Shown here: piece after piece, positions 1 to 8,648 of the stretch
How positions within the stretch are numbered: the first letter of the stretch is position 1
How the letters are laid out: the number at the start of each line of letters is the position of its first letter
The notes under the pieces: model-generated
The model's database searches: none
The model's input: the letters and a program-made list of their open reading frames with translations, nothing else
Told to the model about the DNA's origin: nothing
From: Pseudobutyrivibrio sp.
GTDB lineage: Bacteria; Bacillota; Clostridia; Lachnospirales; Lachnospiraceae
DNA length: 34,199 bases
Direction: 5' to 3'
Assembly (NCBI RefSeq): GCF_017471675.1
Contig: NZ_JAFUSK010000075.1
Location: 1-34,199, forward strand
Position numbers and translations under genes: made by a program

Positions 1-27
1 GCTGTGTTGTTTTCTTTGACGTGACAT
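1..27 (-). CDS. Y1 (IS200/RAYT-like) transposase, N-terminal fragment cut by window edge
   Basis: Only nine codons are visible, reading MSRQRKQHS leftward off the window. The ATG is preceded by a clear GGAGG about seven bases upstream, and a TATAAT-like -10 lies at 49-54 on the same strand. An N-terminus of this type (Met-Ser/Pro-Arg-x-x-Arg) is typical of Firmicutes Y1 transposases of the REP-associated (RAYT) or IS200 type, which are HUH single-strand transposases. The HUH motif and tyrosine are outside the window, so the identification rests on a few residues and the strong ribosome binding site. It sits just downstream of a radical SAM gene that appears truncated, which fits a mobile element. 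Confidence 0.45.
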
Positions 28-89
28 AATGAGTTCCTCCATTTGTTGATTATACAATACTTGAAGGGGATATCTCATTTTGTTTTGTA

Positions 90-1103
90 CTATTTAGATG
101 CTAACACTATACATGAATATCTTTGCAACTCATGTCTTTGAAGTAAAAAGATAAGATTAGATGCAGGATGATTAAATGGGATATTACAATCCTGGCAAAT
201 TTCTATACTTTGTATAATCTTGTCTGCGAGAAAAGCACCATCCACATCCCAACCATCAACTCTTGGCTGTGGTGCATTGATATTTATCTCATCAGCCCCA
301 AGCTCATCAATCATATATTGAATAGACCTTGGTAAATAATCCAAGTTATCTTTACTAGGTGTCATAAGAAAAGAAACTCGTCCATTCATGCTCTTTATCA
401 GTTGGCACTTACTTACCACAGTGTCATATGTTCCTGAGCCATCAGCAAATATTCTATTTCGGTCGTTAATCTCCTTCAGTCCATCCAGACTAATGGTGCA
501 TTTAATATCATTCTCATGAAAATAATTGATAATATCTTCATTTATCAGCGTTCCATTAGTAACAACTTCCTGATTAGCAGATTTTATTTTTCCATCAGCT
601 ATCGCGGACTTTAGCATCTCATTTCCAATTTTTATCAGGTTCATCTTCAGAAGAGGTTCGCCGCCAAAATATTGGATAGAAACATTATTCTTATAATTGT
701 GGGTGATAAAATCTTCTATAATAGATATAAATTTATCTTCATCCATTGAGTGCTTCTTTTTCTCAAATTCCTCAGCTACAAAGCAATATTTACATCTCAT
801 ATTGCAGCCTTCTGTCAGAGATATTCGCAGATAACTTATATAGTTTTTATCTGCTTTGGAAGCCATTTCATATCGTTTCTTTTTTAAATCCATATATTTT
901 AGTTCTTTAAAAACGAAGAACCCCTCATCTATAAGTTCTTTAACAGCCTGAGAATTTTGATTAAGCTCACTATGCTCGTCAAATGCTTCCACCAGTTTGT
1001 ATTGGTCTTCTTCGACTTCGAACATCTTTAAAGTATTTGCATTAAATAAATACTTCTTATTTCCAATAGAAAAACAAAATGCATTTTCAGATTTTTTAAT
1101 CAT
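90..1103 (-). CDS. Radical SAM peptide-maturase-like protein, probably C-terminally truncated
   Basis: The protein is 337 residues from the chosen start (MIKKSENAF). An earlier in-frame ATG at 1226 is rejected because it would place the hairpin at 1194-1241 inside the coding region. Residues 1-75 resemble the small N-terminal domain of RiPP maturases. C100, C104 and C107 form the CxxxCxxC motif that binds the 4Fe-4S cluster and SAM, followed by the GGEP motif (YFGGEPLL) and barrel strands (VTNGT, SLDG). Maturases of this kind normally continue into a SPASM domain that opens with Y-S-C; here the reading ends seven residues after RYSC, about 60 bases before the transposase start. No strong Shine-Dalgarno is visible. 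The natural substrate could be the neighbouring 39-residue peptide, but this is inference. It may be a pseudogene or a naturally short enzyme. Confidence 0.8.
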   Translation of the reverse strand: MIKKSENAFCFSIGNKKYLFNANTLKMFEVEEDQYKLVEAFDEHSELNQNSQAVKELIDEGFFVFKELKYMDLKKKRYEMASKADKNYISYLRISLTEGCNMRCKYCFVAEEFEKKKHSMDEDKFISIIEDFITHNYKNNVSIQYFGGEPLLKMNLIKIGNEMLKSAIADGKIKSANQEVVTNGTLINEDIINYFHENDIKCTISLDGLKEINDRNRIFADGSGTYDTVVSKCQLIKSMNGRVSFLMTPSKDNLDYLPRSIQYMIDELGADEININAPQPRVDGWDVDGAFLADKIIQSIEICQDCNIPFNHPASNLIFLLQRHELQRYSCIVLASK

Positions 1104-1193
1104 AATATCTTTTCTTGATAACTCAGTTTTCCTTTCCTGATATTTCCTATCAATTTTCTTCCTCTGCAAGATACCACGAAAAATGCATACAAA

Positions 1194-1241
1194 AAAAGTG
1201 TCAGAGTTGTGAATATGGTCATTCACAACTCTGACACTTTT
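1194..1241 (-). terminator. 21-bp perfect inverted repeat, terminator-like, between radical SAM gene and peptide gene
   Basis: The arms 1194-1214 and 1221-1241 are exact reverse complements with a six-base loop. On the minus strand the stem is followed by a run of seven T, the form of an intrinsic terminator; the plus strand has only a short T stretch. It could end leftward transcripts from the regulator gene or act as an attenuator ahead of the radical SAM gene. As DNA it could also be an operator between divergent genes. Confidence 0.75.
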
Positions 1242-1291
1242 ATTGGTTATTTCTTCATGCTAACATATTCTTGTTCTAGGAGGATAATGTT

Positions 1292-1411
1292 ATGTTTATT
1301 AAGAAATTAGCTTTGGTTATTGCACTTGCAGTTACTATTTCTTCTACAGTATCTTATGTAACTGTGTTCTCTCCAAATTCAAACTTCATATCTCCTTGGG
1401 AAGAAGAATAA
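1292..1411 (+). CDS. 39-residue secreted-type small peptide (candidate signal or RiPP precursor)
   Basis: A plus-strand ORF in a locus where everything else is minus strand. It has an excellent AGGAGG (1279-1284) eight bases before ATG. A weak promoter (TTGGTT at 1243, 17 bases, TATTCT at 1266) lies directly upstream. The peptide starts MFIKK, then has a hydrophobic core of about 15 residues (LALVIALAVT and on), and ends with a polar tail carrying SPNSNF and SPWEEE. This layout matches exported peptide pheromones of the Phr/PapR/SHP kind, whose C-terminal part is released and sensed. It is divergent from the radical SAM gene and convergent with the dual-HTH regulator, which suggests a peptide-sensing or RiPP function. 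Expression is not proven, and I recognise no family. Confidence 0.6.
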   Translation: MFIKKLALVIALAVTISSTVSYVTVFSPNSNFISPWEEE

Positions 1412-1437
1412 TTTTAAATTGAGTTTAAAAAATGTAG

Positions 1438-3243
1438 TTAGAGTAACGGCTCGAGATTTGTGACATAAAATTTTTTCTCTGATTCACTTTTTTTAAACTC
1501 TGCCAAAGCAACACAGGCTTTTATTCCTTTTTCAATAAGAGCATTGTCTTTTTTTGTTTCCTGCATGGAGTTATTCCATACAATATCATAAATGCAACCT
1601 CCTAGCATAGAGATTCGATCTCTACGAAGCATGCTGATAATATTATACCTTGCAAGTTCATCAGAAATAGTGTAATTACCTTTATTTCCATGATTACTTG
1701 CCACCCACTCCATAATTATGTCGTAAAAGCCAATGCTTACTGATTTATTGTTTGTGCTCATAATATTGTTGCACATACCTTCTATTATCTCTTCACATTT
1801 CTGGTTCTTAACCTTCGCTGCTAAATAATATAAAAGTATTCCTTCCGCCTTTGTAAAAAAATAATCATCAGCATTCTCAATATTATCAATTGGAATGGTA
1901 AGACTAAGGGTATTTAAAATGTTATTTGCAAACTCCTCCCTGCTGATTCTTCCCTGCTCATAATTACAAACATTTATTAATCTGGCCAATACCTGCTGAT
2001 TACTCTTGTCTGTCTTATCAACATTTGTAAGAAGTTTATTTTTTAATGCCTCTGCTGCTTCTATTTGTTGGGTATTGAGTAGCTTTTTGTACTCCAAAAA
2101 CATGTTATTAATTTCGATTTCTGAAGTAGCAATTTCAAATCTTCTAAACAAATATGTCAGTCCAAGTCTCTGAAATAACTGACTGACAATTTGCTGCTGT
2201 GCTCTTGAAGCATTCTTTTCAAGTCGCATTATAGTCCTGACTGAACAAATTCCGTCAGCCAACTGCTCACGGCTCAAGCTCAACATCTTTCTTCGATGTA
2301 AAATCGTATGTGAAACTGAATATATAACACTTGTTTCAAAGAGCAAAACATCTGATTTCCATTTAATGATGTCGTCGCTGCCACTTATCTGCTTTGCAAA
2401 ACTAAGAGCCTCTAGCATCTCCTCTTCCCAGCCACTGATGATGTTCAGCTCTCTTTTTATTTGGATGAGCTTTTGCAAATTATAAACTCTTGACTTGGAA
2501 CGCTCCAGCTCTATAACTTCATCAATAACCTCAGCTGTAATAAATCTGTCTTTTGAATTTAATAGCGATTTAAACAGCTCATAGTATCTAACAACTACAC
2601 CGGACATCAATTTGATGTATGCAATCTTGTCAAAATTTGATTTCTGGATATATGAAAATACCTTTTCATATAGTTCCTTATGGGAAAGAAGATTTTCTGT
2701 GGATGAATCGATCAAACTGCTGTAATACAGGTATCTCTCCAAAATAAATATCTCTTCTGGAGCCAAGCAATACTTATCCAGCATTTGAATATCTATTCCT
2801 TTCATAGTGTAATCTAAAGCATTTTTAAATAAGGCTCTTATTTCTTCTTTGCTTCCATTATTATTTTCAAGATAAAATGCATCCAATACATCAACCAGCT
2901 GATTCCGTATTTTGCCACTGTCTGCAAACTCGGTTTTTAATAGATTTAAAAGCTTTTCTATTTCGTTACTGTTATTATCCAAAATAAAAGCCTCAAGCTT
3001 TACCAGGGTTTCAATGACATTATACTCTTCGTCCTCCACATAATCTTCAAATTCCTCTGGCGAAATTCCTAATCTGGCCATTAACCTATTCCGCATGAAG
3101 TAATTCGGAATCCTGTCTCCATTTTCAAAATAATGAAGGTTCGAAGGAGTACACAGTCCAAGTGAAAGCTGAGCAAGTGATATTCCTCTATATTCTCTTA
3201 TGTTTTTTAATAAACTATAAAAATTCTGTAATTCTTTATCCAT
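1438..3243 (-). CDS. Dual-HTH regulator with helical repeats (RRNPP-like candidate peptide sensor)
   Basis: A 601-residue protein without membrane segments. Residues about 8-60 form an XRE-type helix-turn-helix (LKNIREYRGISLAQLSLG, then NLHYFENGDRIP), followed by about 240 residues of helical, TPR-like sequence. A second XRE-type HTH lies at about 310-363 (LHRRKMLSLSREQLADG, RTIMRLEKNASRA), followed by another helical stretch to the end. RRNPP regulators (Rgg, PlcR, PrgX) have one HTH plus TPRs of about 280-300 residues, so this looks like two such modules fused. The start is supported by GGGGAGGG/AAGG upstream and by a TTGACA-17-TAATTT promoter at 3281-3309. Its neighbour is the small exported-type peptide at 1292, a natural candidate ligand. 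Peptide binding is inferred; direct DNA binding is well supported by the two HTH motifs. Confidence 0.75.
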   Translation of the reverse strand: MDKELQNFYSLLKNIREYRGISLAQLSLGLCTPSNLHYFENGDRIPNYFMRNRLMARLGISPEEFEDYVEDEEYNVIETLVKLEAFILDNNSNEIEKLLNLLKTEFADSGKIRNQLVDVLDAFYLENNNGSKEEIRALFKNALDYTMKGIDIQMLDKYCLAPEEIFILERYLYYSSLIDSSTENLLSHKELYEKVFSYIQKSNFDKIAYIKLMSGVVVRYYELFKSLLNSKDRFITAEVIDEVIELERSKSRVYNLQKLIQIKRELNIISGWEEEMLEALSFAKQISGSDDIIKWKSDVLLFETSVIYSVSHTILHRRKMLSLSREQLADGICSVRTIMRLEKNASRAQQQIVSQLFQRLGLTYLFRRFEIATSEIEINNMFLEYKKLLNTQQIEAAEALKNKLLTNVDKTDKSNQQVLARLINVCNYEQGRISREEFANNILNTLSLTIPIDNIENADDYFFTKAEGILLYYLAAKVKNQKCEEIIEGMCNNIMSTNNKSVSIGFYDIIMEWVASNHGNKGNYTISDELARYNIISMLRRDRISMLGGCIYDIVWNNSMQETKKDNALIEKGIKACVALAEFKKSESEKKFYVTNLEPLL

Positions 3244-3435: not shown

Positions 3436-6400
3436 TTATTCTGACACTGCCTGCTTCTTCTTTTTTAGATAAAGCATAACTACCAGTATCTCTAAACCAA
3501 CTAATACCACTGCTGCAATTACATCAATTGTAATAAACATCTTTGTAAGCTTATCCATACCCTTGTCTAGGTTTTCAGGATAATAGTTCCCTGAGTTTAC
3601 AGTTGTATACATAATGTTCTTACATGCCTGTCGAAGTGCAATTGTAAGTGTTGCTGAATCAGTATCTGTAAGCTGGTTTGAATCATATTTATAGAAACCA
3701 AGCATTGCATCATTACCATTTCTTACTGCATCATCAGTGTTCTGGTAGCCATAATCACCATTCCAATCAGTCAGCACCATTCCTCTAAAGCCCCATTCAT
3801 TTCTAAGAACATTGTTTAGAAGATTTGAATTTGCACCAGACCATACATCTCCAATAAAGTTGAATGAGCTCATCACTGCAAGTGGATATCCTGCCTTCGC
3901 GCCGCCAACCTCTACATTGGACTTAACACATATTTCAAAAGGCTTCATATAGATTTCTCTAATGGCCTGCTCATCTGCAAATGTTTGTAGGAAGCTACAT
4001 CTGTTTACCTCCTGATCATTTAATACAAAATGCTTAATATATGCATATACGCCCTTTGTAGCAAGTCCATTTACAGTATTGCTTGCAATATTTCCTGCTA
4101 ATACTCCATCTTCTGAATAATACTCAAAGTTTCTTCCGCCAAAAGCGCTCCTATGTATATTCATTGCAGGAGAATATGTTCCATAAATTCCAGCTGATGC
4201 ATATTCATCACCCTCTGCTTGACCAATTCTATATGCAAGCTCCTTATTCCATGTCTGTGCAATAAGGTATTCTGTTGCATAAGCTGTTCCATATACACCG
4301 ATATACCAATCATTAAGGCCTGATGTACCATCTGAATCAAGTGTAAGTACCTTACCCACAGATTCTACTGCTGCTGTTTGGAAACCACCAAGGTTTACCA
4401 TATTAGCCATATCTTCAAAGGTCATTTGGTTAAGCAATTCATCCCATGACTCATCATCATAGCTTACGCCAACAAAATCTTTAAGATCCAAGCCATTTTT
4501 TTCACCAGTTACAGGCATTTCATCTTCTGGATTGTCAAATACAGTTGGATCATATTCAGGCACAGCATGCATTCTGATAAAAGCCTGCACATCATCATCC
4601 ATTGCAAATAGTTCTTCCGCTGGAGCAGCTGTAGCCTCTTCATAATTAGCAAATCCATCTGCTCGTGAAAGATATGTTACCTTTCCAAGGGAATAATCCT
4701 GGAACTGATTATTTGCAGGTATATTATCTGAATGTCTACTATCTTTTGAGTAATCAATATCTGCATCTATAGTAATAGTTCTTTCATCAATTACTGTATG
4801 AGAATCTTCTCTAATAGAAAGAATATAATCACCTGCTTCAAGAACATAGCCACCATTACCTGATGAAGCCTTGATACTATTGGAATCATATGATGCCATA
4901 TCCTCATATGCAACTTCAAAGCTAATCACCTGCGAATCACCTGGTTCAAGGACATCTGTCTTATCAAAATCAATAAGATTTACTGATGCCTTTTCAATAC
5001 CACCATTATAATAAGGTGGATTATAATATAGCTCTACAACATCCTTTCCTGCCACATCACCTGTGTTAGTAACAGTAACCTCTATAGAAACAGAATCATT
5101 ATTTTCGGTAAAGCCTGTAATCTCCTGAGAAAAATCAGTGTAGCTTAATCCATATCCAAAAGGATATAAAACCTTTTCATCATAATTAATAAGACCTTCC
5201 TCAGCTGCTGTTTCATAGAACTTGTAGCCCACATAAATACCCTCGATATAGTCAACAAAACCAAATGCACCTTTGAAGGCTTCGTCAGCTGCTGTAAACT
5301 CATCCTTCATGTCCTGCACATTGTTGTAAACAAAAGAACCATAGTTGTTAACTGTAGGAGTATCAAATAAATCATACACGAATGTATCTGCAGTACGGCC
5401 TGAAGGATTTACTGTACCATTTAAAATTTCGCCAAGAGCTTCCATACCAGTTGCTCCAGTACCTGGAACTAATAGTACAGACTTAATTGAATCATAATCA
5501 TTAACCCAGCCAAGCTCCATAGTATTATTGGCGTTGATCACCACGATAACATTCCTAAATTCTGAAGTAACAAGTTCAAGCATATCTTCTTCTGTGTTAC
5601 TCAGCTCAAGGTAATGCTCACCCTCATCAAAATCGTCATAGCTCTTTGAGTTATTATTGTAGCTGCTTGCTAAATATGTATAATTCTCATGTCCATCTGC
5701 ATCCCTATCTGCTGTATTATAAGTTCCATCGATTACAGCTTTCATATCCTGTGGCTCATCCTGTCCTTCACCACCTGAACGGGAAATAACCACAAGTGCT
5801 GTATCGGAGAAGCTTTTGGCTTCATTCATTAAATCATCAGTGTATTTTTCTACTGGTGGTTCAGGAAGCGACCAATCTGTATAGTTGACACTTACTACGT
5901 TGCCACCTAAATCTCTTGTCGCACTATAATCCACATACATATCAACAAGTGACTGATTAACATTAAAGCCTGCATCCTTTAGCGACTGTAAAATATCTAT
6001 GTTTCCAGTATTATCTGCAGAACCAGATCCTGTTCCACCGTAGATAGGATTTGTAGCTGCCCAACCAAATACGTTAATATTAGAATTGTCTGCTAAAGGA
6101 AGTGTTGCATCCTCGTTCTTTGCAAGAACAATTCCTTCCTCACCTATTTCCACATTTATATCTTCAGATGCCTTCTTAGCATCATCTGAAACAGTTGCCG
6201 CGCCATTGATTATAGGAGCTAAGTTGTTATACATAGGTCCTAAGCATATCGAATTTACGATAACTAAAATGATAGCAAACCAGGCTGTTACCGCTGACCA
6301 TCTAACCACAAATCTTGAACCCTTTTTAGCAAAAAAATGTGCTGCAATAAGAACTACTATCAACGCTATTATTGTTCCTAATATCGCGTAAATATATCCG

Positions 6401-6492
6401 CCCAATTGAGTCACATATGTCTGAACATCCTCAGGCGAAACTCCCATACCTGTAAATATAGGAGTGAGCCTATCAATTAAAAACTGTAACAT
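3436..6492 (-). CDS. Membrane-anchored family 3 glycoside hydrolase (beta-glucosidase type) with reversed domain order
   Basis: About 1018 residues. Start chosen at the second ATG of an ATGATG pair because GAGGAG lies seven bases before it. Two N-terminal membrane helices (about 35-90) are followed by the alpha/beta sandwich (EGIVLAKNEDATLPL), a fibronectin-III-like domain (YPFGYGLSYTDF) and only then the TIM barrel with SDGTSGLN, YIKHFVLNDQE and the nucleophile motif VLTDWNGD near residue 910. Usual GH3 enzymes run barrel, sandwich, FnIII; the reversed order is known from Butyrivibrio fibrisolvens bglA and Ruminococcus albus. A C-terminal membrane helix (about 985-1008) ends in KKKKQ. The catalytic part is therefore predicted to sit outside the membrane, releasing sugars from beta-linked oligosaccharides. 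The LytTR/GHKL genes immediately upstream are separated by a terminator. The substrate cannot be read from sequence. Confidence 0.9.
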   Translation of the reverse strand: MLQFLIDRLTPIFTGMGVSPEDVQTYVTQLGGYIYAILGTIIALIVVLIAAHFFAKKGSRFVVRWSAVTAWFAIILVIVNSICLGPMYNNLAPIINGAATVSDDAKKASEDINVEIGEEGIVLAKNEDATLPLADNSNINVFGWAATNPIYGGTGSGSADNTGNIDILQSLKDAGFNVNQSLVDMYVDYSATRDLGGNVVSVNYTDWSLPEPPVEKYTDDLMNEAKSFSDTALVVISRSGGEGQDEPQDMKAVIDGTYNTADRDADGHENYTYLASSYNNNSKSYDDFDEGEHYLELSNTEEDMLELVTSEFRNVIVVINANNTMELGWVNDYDSIKSVLLVPGTGATGMEALGEILNGTVNPSGRTADTFVYDLFDTPTVNNYGSFVYNNVQDMKDEFTAADEAFKGAFGFVDYIEGIYVGYKFYETAAEEGLINYDEKVLYPFGYGLSYTDFSQEITGFTENNDSVSIEVTVTNTGDVAGKDVVELYYNPPYYNGGIEKASVNLIDFDKTDVLEPGDSQVISFEVAYEDMASYDSNSIKASSGNGGYVLEAGDYILSIREDSHTVIDERTITIDADIDYSKDSRHSDNIPANNQFQDYSLGKVTYLSRADGFANYEEATAAPAEELFAMDDDVQAFIRMHAVPEYDPTVFDNPEDEMPVTGEKNGLDLKDFVGVSYDDESWDELLNQMTFEDMANMVNLGGFQTAAVESVGKVLTLDSDGTSGLNDWYIGVYGTAYATEYLIAQTWNKELAYRIGQAEGDEYASAGIYGTYSPAMNIHRSAFGGRNFEYYSEDGVLAGNIASNTVNGLATKGVYAYIKHFVLNDQEVNRCSFLQTFADEQAIREIYMKPFEICVKSNVEVGGAKAGYPLAVMSSFNFIGDVWSGANSNLLNNVLRNEWGFRGMVLTDWNGDYGYQNTDDAVRNGNDAMLGFYKYDSNQLTDTDSATLTIALRQACKNIMYTTVNSGNYYPENLDKGMDKLTKMFITIDVIAAVVLVGLEILVVMLYLKKKKQAVSE

Positions 6493-6554
6493 CATCTTTC
6501 TCCTCATATTAAACTTATTAACAAAGCGCGCTCTTAACTTGGATATAAGATAAC

Positions 6555-6620: not shown

Positions 6621-7265
6621 TTACTGTGCCTTGGGTAGTATTATATCTAAATAAAACTTACCATTTTTTGTACTCATAAGTATTGAGCCGCCATACTTCT
6701 CAGTAATATATTTAATACTCTTGACTCCAAAACCATGGTAGCTTTTGTCATCCTTTGTAGTGACAGGAAGTCCATCTATAAATTGAATCTCTCTAGAGCA
6801 TCTGTTTTCCATATGAATTAAAACCATGTCTCCTCGCTCTTTTATGTGAAGGCTGATAACTCTTTCCTCTGGCTTTTCTTTTACAACACTTTCCAGTGCA
6901 TTATCAAAAGCGTTTCCCATTAGAGCGTATATATCTGTTGGAGTCATAAAGTCAATAAGCTTACCATCAATCATACAGCTAAAAGCAACATCTCTCTCGT
7001 TAGAAATCAATGTTTTTTCCCTAAGAACATAATCCAATGTCTCGCATCCAGTATGATAAGTGGCATCATATATAGATACAGCCTGCTGCACTTCCTTTAT
7101 GTATTCATTTCTCTCTTTATTATCTTCAAGCTTAGTCAACGCCTTTAACTGATGCTTCAAATCATGACATTTAATATTAATAATGTCTATAGCTTCCTTG
7201 TTGCTTTTGTGCGCATTGTCTGCCATCTGAAGCAACTGCTCCATGGTATGCTGCTCCTCTAGCAT
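6621..7265 (-). CDS. GHKL histidine kinase, catalytic part (AgrC-like; separated by frameshift from its membrane part)
   Basis: 214 residues with the H-box CHDLKHQL (putative phospho-acceptor in HDLKHQ), the N-box GNAFDNALES and the G-box HGFGVKSIKYITEKYGG, the usual order in AgrC/CitA-like GHKL kinases. No membrane segment is present. The ATG at 7265 has no convincing ribosome binding site. Upstream codons in the same frame read VLRENQ, a coiled-coil linker that would join naturally to the membrane protein at 7276-7947, which ends EVLRT in another frame. The two pieces therefore look like one sensor gene broken by a frameshift. Translation by reinitiation cannot be ruled out, since the stop and new start are about ten bases apart. 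Confidence 0.8.
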   Translation of the reverse strand: MLEEQHTMEQLLQMADNAHKSNKEAIDIINIKCHDLKHQLKALTKLEDNKERNEYIKEVQQAVSIYDATYHTGCETLDYVLREKTLISNERDVAFSCMIDGKLIDFMTPTDIYALMGNAFDNALESVVKEKPEERVISLHIKERGDMVLIHMENRCSREIQFIDGLPVTTKDDKSYHGFGVKSIKYITEKYGGSILMSTKNGKFYLDIILPKAQ

Positions 7266-7275
7266 TTGGTTTTCT

Positions 7276-7947
7276 CTAAGTACGTAATACTTCCATTACA
7301 AGCACAAGCCCGCAGCACATAAAACTATAGCTTGGACATACTACTCTTGATAAGAAGCTAACTTCTGCATTAGAATAGGCCAGACTTAATCCTATTGCAG
7401 CTACCATCACAACCACAAACAGAATTGATATTCTCCTGTCATTTTTTCTAAAATGATTCTTATCTATATTTCTTTTCACTATTATATAATAAATGATAAC
7501 ATCCCACACCACATAAGAGGCATAGTGGAACAAAATGTATGTACTAAATCTTTCATTAGGCTCCATCCCAATATAATAAATCAGAATTGTGGTAAGACCA
7601 AAGCACATATGCTCCGTTGCATATCCACTGGCAACAGCAAACAGGATTTCTATAAATTCCATATCAAATACAAGATAAATAGGAATTATGCTAAAAAGAG
7701 CCCATACAAAATATCTTAGAAAACTATATATATCAAACCCCTGCTGTCCATCTGTAGGAATCAGTATTACATAGCCCCACAAACCACAGCAAATCATATA
7801 GATTACAATGCCAAGTATCAGCCTAGATACAAATCCTCTATTTCTCCTTTGATTAACTAAAAAAGGTACCTCCGCAATAAGTAGCTCCAATGGAAATCTG
7901 ACGAAGGAACCTATTATAATATTCTGAATTTGAATTAATATTTCCAT
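7276..7947 (-). CDS. Membrane sensor domain of AgrC-like histidine kinase (N-terminal part)
   Basis: 223 residues with about six hydrophobic segments (for example LILGIVIYMICCGLWGYVI, FVWALFSIIPIYLVFDM, ISILFVVVMVAAIGLSLAY), typical of the sensor part of AgrC-like kinases. The ATG at 7947 overlaps the TGA of the response regulator, so the two are translationally coupled. The protein lacks a kinase core: it ends at EVLRT just where a kinase would continue into the dimerisation helix. That helix and the GHKL domain lie 10 bases downstream in a different frame. The signal is unknown; no agrB or agrD gene is present in the window. Confidence 0.75.
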   Translation of the reverse strand: MEILIQIQNIIIGSFVRFPLELLIAEVPFLVNQRRNRGFVSRLILGIVIYMICCGLWGYVILIPTDGQQGFDIYSFLRYFVWALFSIIPIYLVFDMEFIEILFAVASGYATEHMCFGLTTILIYYIGMEPNERFSTYILFHYASYVVWDVIIYYIIVKRNIDKNHFRKNDRRISILFVVVMVAAIGLSLAYSNAEVSFLSRVVCPSYSFMCCGLVLVMEVLRT

Positions 7948-8648
7948 CAATAACCACCTACATACTTAATATAATCCTCAGTAAATTGCTTCTTCTGACG
8001 TCTGGAAAGCGGCAGCTTGGCAATACCTACATCTACCTCTTCCTTAGTAATACATCGTACCTGTTCATAGTTAACAAGAATACCTGATGAACATTCTCCG
8101 AAAAACTTGTTACCAAGCTTTTCTTTGATAGACTTAATAGTATTTCGCTCAATATAATCCCGCGACATGGTGTGAAAAATCACTTTGTCCTGGGACTTTT
8201 CAATATACAATATCTCATTACTATTTATTTTATAAAGTCCATCAGGGTCATTTATCAAAACTGAGGTATCTGGCCTCTGTGACACTGAATTAATAGCCTT
8301 TTCAAGTGTATCCGTAAATACGAAATAACCCACTGGCTTAACAATAAAATCTACAGCATTAACCTTGTACCCTTCTATAGCAAACTGAGCCATATTGGTA
8401 ACGAAAACAATGGCTACGGAACTATCCTTTTTGCGGATTTCCCTAGCCACAGTCAGACCATCAGAGCCAGGCATTTCTATATCTAAAAATAAAACATCAT
8501 AATGATTATGAAATTCTTCTAGAAAATCAATGCTGGCCTCATAATAATCTATATTAAATTCTTTCCCCGATTTTTCACTGTACTGATGCAAATAGCCCTT
8601 TAACACATTTGCATCAGTAACAGAATCATCAATAATTGCAATTTTCAT
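7947..8648 (-). CDS. LytTR-family response regulator (AgrA/LytR-like)
   Basis: 233 residues. A receiver domain (1-120) shows the acidic pair IIDDS, the phospho-acceptor in LFLDIEMPGSDG (D56 region), the T switch in FVTN and the lysine in FIVKPVGY. A LytTR DNA-binding domain (about 135-233) follows, with YIEKSQDKVIFHT, RNTIKSIKEKLG and LPLSRRQKKQF. Such proteins bind direct repeats upstream of target genes. The partner is the split sensor kinase downstream, joined by a TGA/ATG overlap. No Shine-Dalgarno precedes the ATG; instead a TATAAT (8653-8658) lies only a few bases upstream, so the message may be nearly leaderless. Confidence 0.9.
   Translation of the reverse strand: MKIAIIDDSVTDANVLKGYLHQYSEKSGKEFNIDYYEASIDFLEEFHNHYDVLFLDIEMPGSDGLTVAREIRKKDSSVAIVFVTNMAQFAIEGYKVNAVDFIVKPVGYFVFTDTLEKAINSVSQRPDTSVLINDPDGLYKINSNEILYIEKSQDKVIFHTMSRDYIERNTIKSIKEKLGNKFFGECSSGILVNYEQVRCITKEEVDVGIAKLPLSRRQKKQFTEDYIKYVGGY

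Follow-up and report, generated by a model that had tools for sequence, protein, structure and literature searches.

We describe a locus at one end of a contig from Pseudobutyrivibrio sp. (Lachnospiraceae; assembly GCF_017471675.1, contig NZ_JAFUSK010000075.1) that we consider likely to encode a peptide quorum-sensing system, in which a fused double receptor of the PlcR type acts on its own peptide gene and on a divergent gene. The whole contig was analysed, and this stretch of 34,199 nucleotides (nt) is referred to below as the window. From the window start, the locus begins with one end of an insertion element, followed by a radical SAM gene (minus strand) that is represented by its 5′ part, a long palindrome, a small open reading frame (ORF) on the plus strand and a regulator gene on the minus strand. 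The small ORF and the regulator ORF lie tail to tail, with 26 nt between the former and the regulator stop codon. The small gene and the radical SAM gene diverge from each other and flank the palindrome. Our computations bear on the identity of these parts, their conservation, the duplication of a PlcR-like unit and the match between palindrome and receptor, and from these we infer secretion, binding and gene control. A preliminary description made from the letters of the window had pointed to the peptide, the regulator and the radical SAM enzyme; it did not include the palindrome, which is the third recurring part of the locus.

A regulator built from two PlcR-like units

Within the regulator, a PlcR-like unit is duplicated; this unit combines a helix-turn-helix (HTH) domain with helices of the tetratricopeptide repeat (TPR) type. 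Pfam HTH_3 matches two stretches of the protein of 601 amino acids (aa) with an E value of 1.1e-8, and the second HTH (residues 311-363) also matches TIGR03070, below the cut-off of that model. The two halves, termed modules 1 and 2, are homologous over 263 columns (E 7e-36). Family profiles of both modules align to PlcR (2qfc) along nearly its full length, with E values of 1.1e-8 for module 1 and 2.2e-19 for module 2, and PlcR is the first-ranked match of the whole-family profile. An AlphaFold2 model of the regulator (predicted local distance difference test, pLDDT, 86.2; predicted template modelling score, pTM, 0.87) shows each module with its own HTH and a series of TPR-like helices. When this model was used for a structural search, PlcR entries took ranks 1-3, and NprR, ComR, Rgg2 and Rap came below. 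The genome encodes two further regulators of this kind, with 29% and 28% identity to the one in the window.

Each module thus shows, by its PlcR match, its model and its fold, the N-terminal HTH followed by TPR repeats that defines RRNPP (or RRNPPA) receptors, while the Pfam TPR models find no match in the regulator, so that at the Pfam level the repeats are not recovered by profile hidden Markov models. A chain of the PlcR subfamily has a single HTH and a single TPR domain, and the regulator has two of each. RRNPP_detector screens receptors of 250-500 aa, according to passages of PMC10075063; each module has about 300 aa, but the whole protein exceeds this range. We therefore treat the locus as a variant of RRNPP systems rather than as a member, and a double form of this length would be passed over by the detector.

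A somewhat less than even chance is given to the possibility that one module alone senses the peptide and that the other is a DNA-binding or dimerizing part. Module 1 is the less PlcR-like of the two by its E value, but HTH and TPR-like helices are present in both modules of the model.

A small ORF that converges on the regulator

The ORF that faces the regulator is preceded by the ribosome-binding site AGGAGG and encodes 39 aa, with a basic and hydrophobic N-terminus and an acidic tail, SPWEEE. Its length and its distance from the regulator stop fit the adjacent precursor gene of 10-100 aa that is expected of RRNPP systems. To count similar ORFs elsewhere, we used a rule that asks for an ATG start, 22-80 aa, a hydrophobic segment, a basic start and a ribosome-binding site, with the 3′ end of the ORF no more than 60 nt from the regulator stop. 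Since this rule was shaped after the first examples had been seen, 13 double regulators outside the first set served as a further test. The first set comprised 46 non-duplicate related loci, among them a few with single-module or split regulators (L025, L051, L052 and L054). Five duplicates (L039, L010, L046, L037 and L047) and one locus with too little downstream sequence (L038) had been left out before counting.

A convergent ORF that satisfies the rule is found at 31 of the 46 loci, against 0.18 expected by chance (40 dinucleotide shuffles per locus). None of the 46 has such an ORF on the same strand as the regulator, and none has one upstream of it on either strand. Of 84 neighbouring genes taken as unrelated controls, one satisfied the rule, and of 22 other genes in the window none did (1/106 in total); 11 of the 13 further double regulators were positive. 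The 15 loci of the first set that the rule misses divide into six with a candidate outside the rule and nine without a convincing one. Both additional regulators of the genome also have, at their 3′ ends, a convergent small ORF of basic, hydrophobic and polar composition. Ratios of nonsynonymous to synonymous substitution rates (dN/dS) in five peptide pairs were 0.17, 0.08, 0.15, 0.40 and 0.19, where three pairs are drawn from the same three loci and dS exceeds 1 in two. Over their last 15 residues, 30 of 34 peptides have a net acidic composition, and searches of Pfam and NCBIfam gave no match for the peptide of the window. The hydropathy rule marks this peptide as a candidate for secretion.

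The preliminary description is thus well borne out for these two parts: the peptide ORF with its AGGAGG is where it had been placed, its frame is kept beside homologues of the regulator, and the regulator does carry two HTH domains within a fused pair of modules whose helical regions are TPR-like.

Two side observations concern the peptides of other loci. The tail motif ST(L/F/Y)S recurs in those of L011, L117, L019, L043, L045 and L049, whose receptors belong to differing branches. The peptides of L051 and L052, loci with single-module receptors in metagenome-assembled genomes of Oscillospiraceae, have near-identical N-termini and diverged last residues, and they look as if pherotypes had split.

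A long palindrome upstream of the peptide gene

The palindrome of the window has 25-nt arms that are 96% complementary and are separated by a 6-nt gap. To compare loci, the best inverted repeat was taken from the 180 nt upstream of the peptide start, or, in the extended analysis, from 360 nt where no peptide had been called. Its mean score is 14.1, versus 6.2 in shuffles and 6.2 within the regulator gene. Scores of at least 13 occur at 18 of 34 loci and at none of the 34 control stretches; among 20 shuffles, a single one yielded such scores, at 2/34 loci. At one of the 18 (L020) the repeat overlaps the ribosome-binding site. The further set gave 12/24, with 0/24 both in controls and in shuffles, and a palindrome is also present at 4 of 11 first-set loci that have no called peptide.

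Palindrome sequence tracks receptor relatedness. There are two common arm types, GGGACAGAGTTGTC-like and CATGACNTTTT-like, and on the receptor tree (49 rows) their distribution requires one change, versus 8.7 when shuffled, with 0 of 500 shuffles as low; a quick receptor tree gave the same count. These types, A and B (15 and 11 rows), were set by eye once the palindromes had been seen, and for this reason we added a label-free test. Arm similarity correlates with receptor identity (Spearman 0.51, equalled in 0 of 5000 permutations) across 27 of the 34 arms, from which L020 and six loci lacking a full-length double regulator had been dropped. Palindromes nested within the arms were considered as proof that HTHs pair there, as their scores sum to 65, compared with a mean of 49.9 and a maximum of 61 in shuffles. 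Given that the arms are related and that 15 of 18 single loci have p > 0.05, this signal is only suggestive and was not retained as proof.

A −10 box matching at least five of six positions follows the palindrome at 16 of 18 loci, and its median distance to the centre of the palindrome is 42 nt. The spread of these distances was equally tight in 0.5% of shuffles, and boxes were equally numerous in 9%. In the window the script chose a different 4/6 site than the TAACAT that we selected by eye. The −35 boxes, counted without a control, reach a best match of 5/6 at one of the 18 loci and no more than 4 at the other 17. For the −10 and arm analyses the score threshold was at least 11, and L020 and L033 were excluded because their repeats coincide with the ribosome-binding site or with a stretch rich in A.

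A wider regulon was also sought in the genome with two operator patterns. Paired sites are confined to the three regulator loci, and elsewhere only two single half-sites with two mismatches occur, so each system looks local and the idea of a wider regulon was set aside.

Comparison with known systems

PlcR of the Bacillus cereus group is a single HTH-TPR unit that dimerizes; a small peptide gene, papR, lies adjacent to it, and its operator is palindromic, as at the locus described here. TprA of Streptococcus pneumoniae likewise consists of a single module. PlcR appears to be the nearest known receptor, given the profiles of both modules and the structural ranking, whereas the locus differs from PlcR/PapR in joining two units in one chain and in having a peptide gene that converges on the regulator gene (papR runs in the same direction as plcR). 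The nearest known relative in layout is TprA/PhrA. According to passages of PMC7595303, TprA is a PlcR homologue whose peptide gene lies in the opposite direction, and it controls a lanthionine-peptide locus; it differs in being described as a repressor that the peptide relieves. Its size falls within the 285-473 aa reported for validated receptors in passages of PMC10075063.

The preliminary description had read the locus as an unusual form of the theme known from Rgg/SHP systems, whereas our comparisons favour PlcR. Those associated with radical SAM clusters for ribosomally synthesized and post-translationally modified peptides (RiPPs) do share a pheromone, an HTH-TPR receptor and radical SAM RiPP genes with this locus (PMC13361665 and PMC12322106, in part), but our regulator appears nearer to PlcR than to Rgg in sequence and fold, has two modules and is paired with peptides whose tails are mostly acidic. 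The Qsr/QssR systems of Clostridium are also RRNPP-type pairs of receptor and peptide; in the passages of PMC10075063 that describe them, validated receptors have 285-473 aa and a double form is not mentioned.

Proposed mechanism and alternatives

The mechanism that we propose is drawn from the anatomy of the locus and from the analogy with PlcR and TprA. After export of the precursor encoded by the small gene, the acidic tail at its C-terminus would be cut off and re-imported, and this tail peptide might bind in the TPR groove of either module or of both. The receptor would act on the palindrome of about 40 base pairs (bp) in a bidirectional promoter that serves the peptide gene and its divergent neighbour. 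Both HTHs of a chain might contact the same arm, such that two chains cover the palindrome. As a result, the peptide gene would be switched on by feedback, along with a target, here a RiPP-type radical SAM gene that is interrupted by the insertion element.

Because the −35 boxes are mostly poor, we lean modestly towards activation over repression. The same signalling system might instead employ a repressor that the peptide lifts off the DNA, and we give this version appreciable weight, albeit the smaller share, since TprA, the nearest relative in layout, usually works in this way. That PlcR homologue also has its peptide gene opposite to it, counts a lantibiotic cluster among the genes it regulates and acts through derepression (PMC7595303, in part). 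Moreover, the palindrome extends to the −35 region, which could be the seat of a repressor. The promoters beside the palindromes, with their −10 boxes and mostly poor −35 boxes (the latter counted without a control), nevertheless fit an activator-dependent arrangement better.

A reading in which the palindrome forms an RNA hairpin, as a terminator or attenuator, and is not bound by protein seems improbable to us. With A7 and T4 at its sides, the palindrome of the window could terminate transcripts in both directions, but it lies upstream of both divergent genes, its counterparts at L002 and L003 lack such T runs, −10 boxes come after it within a narrow range of distances, and its sequence goes with receptor relatedness. 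Slightly less probable still is a role of the small protein as a toxin or bacteriocin that an XRE-type regulator keeps in check, for although membrane toxins can be short, basic, hydrophobic ORFs and XRE regulators are often antitoxins, the peptide tails are mostly net acidic, both halves of the regulator are PlcR-like and the peptide matches nothing in Pfam or NCBIfam.

Origin of the double receptor

Single-module relatives of 298 aa, from L051 and L052, have the same convergent peptide and long palindrome. At L025, L099, L131 and L133, two adjacent, overlapping single-module ORFs occur in the order of the fused protein, module 1 and then module 2, and in three of these four split pairs the peptide comes after module 2 (in one of them 115 nt away). 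A quick module tree groups the members of the four pairs with module 1 and module 2, respectively. Two more adjacent pairs are listed, one in the fused order (G190:C125) and one seemingly in the opposite order (G138:C41). This pattern fits duplication followed by fusion, with fission as a possible alternative course.

A second, independent fusion at L007 and L015 was considered when the quick module tree placed both of their modules on the module 2 side. We do not claim it, as a single module 1 clade was not rejected (approximately unbiased test, p-AU 0.661, with a likelihood higher by 7.05) and the data are therefore compatible with a single origin.

Palindromes at single-module loci are as long as those at double loci, and two dimers may do there what two fused chains would do here. 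A more elaborate scheme, which we regard as speculative and rather unlikely in its entirety, is that two different PlcR-type sensors were fused head to tail. One chain would then hold two peptide pockets and two HTHs, two chains would clamp one palindrome of about 40 bp, the pockets could integrate two peptide states or signals, and the tandem two-gene pairs would be surviving intermediates.

Locus features and neighbouring genes

Table 1. Features of the window discussed in the text, with positions counted from its first nucleotide
Feature	Position	Strand	Evidence or remark
Window			whole of contig C49 of the genome
IS3-type insertion element end, at contig edge	1-109	-	repeat copies elsewhere in genome
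Radical SAM gene, 5′ part only, candidate target	110-1103	-	Pfam Radical_SAM; divergent from peptide gene
Long palindrome, candidate operator	1190-1245 (core 1198-1237)	no strand	equivalents upstream of peptides at other loci
Weak candidate −10 box TAACAT, 4/6 match	1261-1266	+	by eye; 43.5 nt from palindrome core centre
Ribosome-binding site AGGAGG	1278-1283	+	sequence; 8 nt before ATG
Candidate pheromone precursor ORF, 39 aa	1292-1411	+	ATG start; convergent counterpart at 31/46 loci
Double-module regulator, 601 aa	1438-3243	-	ORF, Pfam, module profiles, model
Module 2, residues 300-601, HTH and TPR-like helices	1441-2346	-	PlcR profile match and model
HTH 2, residues 311-363	2155-2313	-	TIGR03070 below cut-off, second HTH_3 stretch, PDB HTH matches
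Module 1, residues 1-299, HTH and TPR-like helices	2347-3243	-	PlcR profile match and model
HTH 1, residues 12-65	3049-3210	-	Pfam HTH_3

The radical SAM ORF as listed (90-1226, minus strand) begins at a GTG at position 1226, within the palindrome, and the ATG at 1103 is the likelier true start. The ORF matches Pfam Radical_SAM (E 1.5e-16) and, in part, the CcpM model (151.6 bits against a cut-off of 500). A CcpM-like maturase has a radical SAM and a SPASM domain in one protein; the window holds the radical SAM part alone, cut at a repeat. This repeat, window positions 1-109, occurs at three other places in the genome, and its copy on contig C35 marks the end of an element whose ORFs have 116 and 274 aa and which we take to be of the IS3 type. 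The radical SAM gene of the window, as assembled, thus reads as truncated by an IS3-type element. Beside the C35 copy is a SPASM-like ORF (TIGR04085, 22.6 bits, under the cut-off of 27), followed by ORFs that by eye resemble peptidases, an MFS transporter, a further radical SAM protein and an adenylation enzyme. This C35 cluster occupies positions 1-6172 of L139, to the left of the IS3-type copy. It is possibly the other half of the radical SAM cluster of the window, split by the element.

The radical SAM neighbour of the preliminary description is therefore present as an ORF, but the gene is cut off by the element and represents one among several types of divergent neighbour. Eight of 20 neighbour proteins scanned have no Pfam match, and the others are varied (M16, B12/radical SAM, EAL, histidine kinase, ThiF, MFS, ABC, thioredoxin-like, C39-like and weaker ones). 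A radical SAM motif was found in only 9 of 44 neighbourhood segments of unequal length, by a regular expression without background control and after removal of one false match in a regulator tail (L089). With neighbours this diverse, radical SAM enzymes were rejected as the general target. At the C11 locus of the same genome, the divergent gene encodes an M16 peptidase and is followed by an ORF of unknown function and by an ApyD-like B12 radical SAM gene that runs off the contig. ORFs that by eye resemble M16 peptidases also occur near further family regulators, at L075 and at L092 (near the L007 double regulator), the latter also with a radical SAM motif protein.

Beyond the regulator, an ORF for a GH3-like glycosidase (3436-6507, minus strand) has its Pfam domains in swapped order, with the C domain at residues 126-456, an Fn3-like domain at 489-568 and the N domain at 741-916, and has hydrophobic stretches, by eye, near both termini. 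Further along, within 6621-8648 (minus strand), a LytTR-like response regulator ORF lies beside a kinase-domain-like ORF (6621-7265) and a membrane-protein-like ORF (7276-7950). By eye, the latter two may belong to a single sensor kinase that is split over two reading frames.

Distribution and significance

Within the genus, 4 of 29 genomes, including the one studied here, have profile or protein matches. In the family, at least 17 of 298 genomes matched in a first draw and, with a broader profile, at least 45 of 396 in a second draw that took in both double and single-module forms, each count again including our genome. At least 8 of 393 genomes, ours among them, matched in the class, and full-length double matches among the candidates scored there came from the same family only. 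These family and class counts are lower bounds, as the best 3-4 candidates per genome were scored. No viral relatives were confirmed.

The passages of PMC12700828 and PMC9765709 that describe such receptors give an N-terminal HTH and say nothing of a double form. No word beginning with Lachnospir occurs in the main texts of PMC10075063, PMC12700828 and PMC9765709. Among the literature matches listed, whose scope takes in neither most subscription journals nor any preprints, none describes a double receptor in RRNPP-type peptide quorum sensing, and none describes RRNPP systems from Lachnospiraceae.

Lachnospiraceae are dominant bacteria of the gut and rumen, and the locus offers parts that can be put to experiment, namely a candidate pheromone, its receptor and a defined candidate operator. 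The tandem gene pairs, in turn, make it possible to examine how a dimeric receptor might have turned into a single chain.

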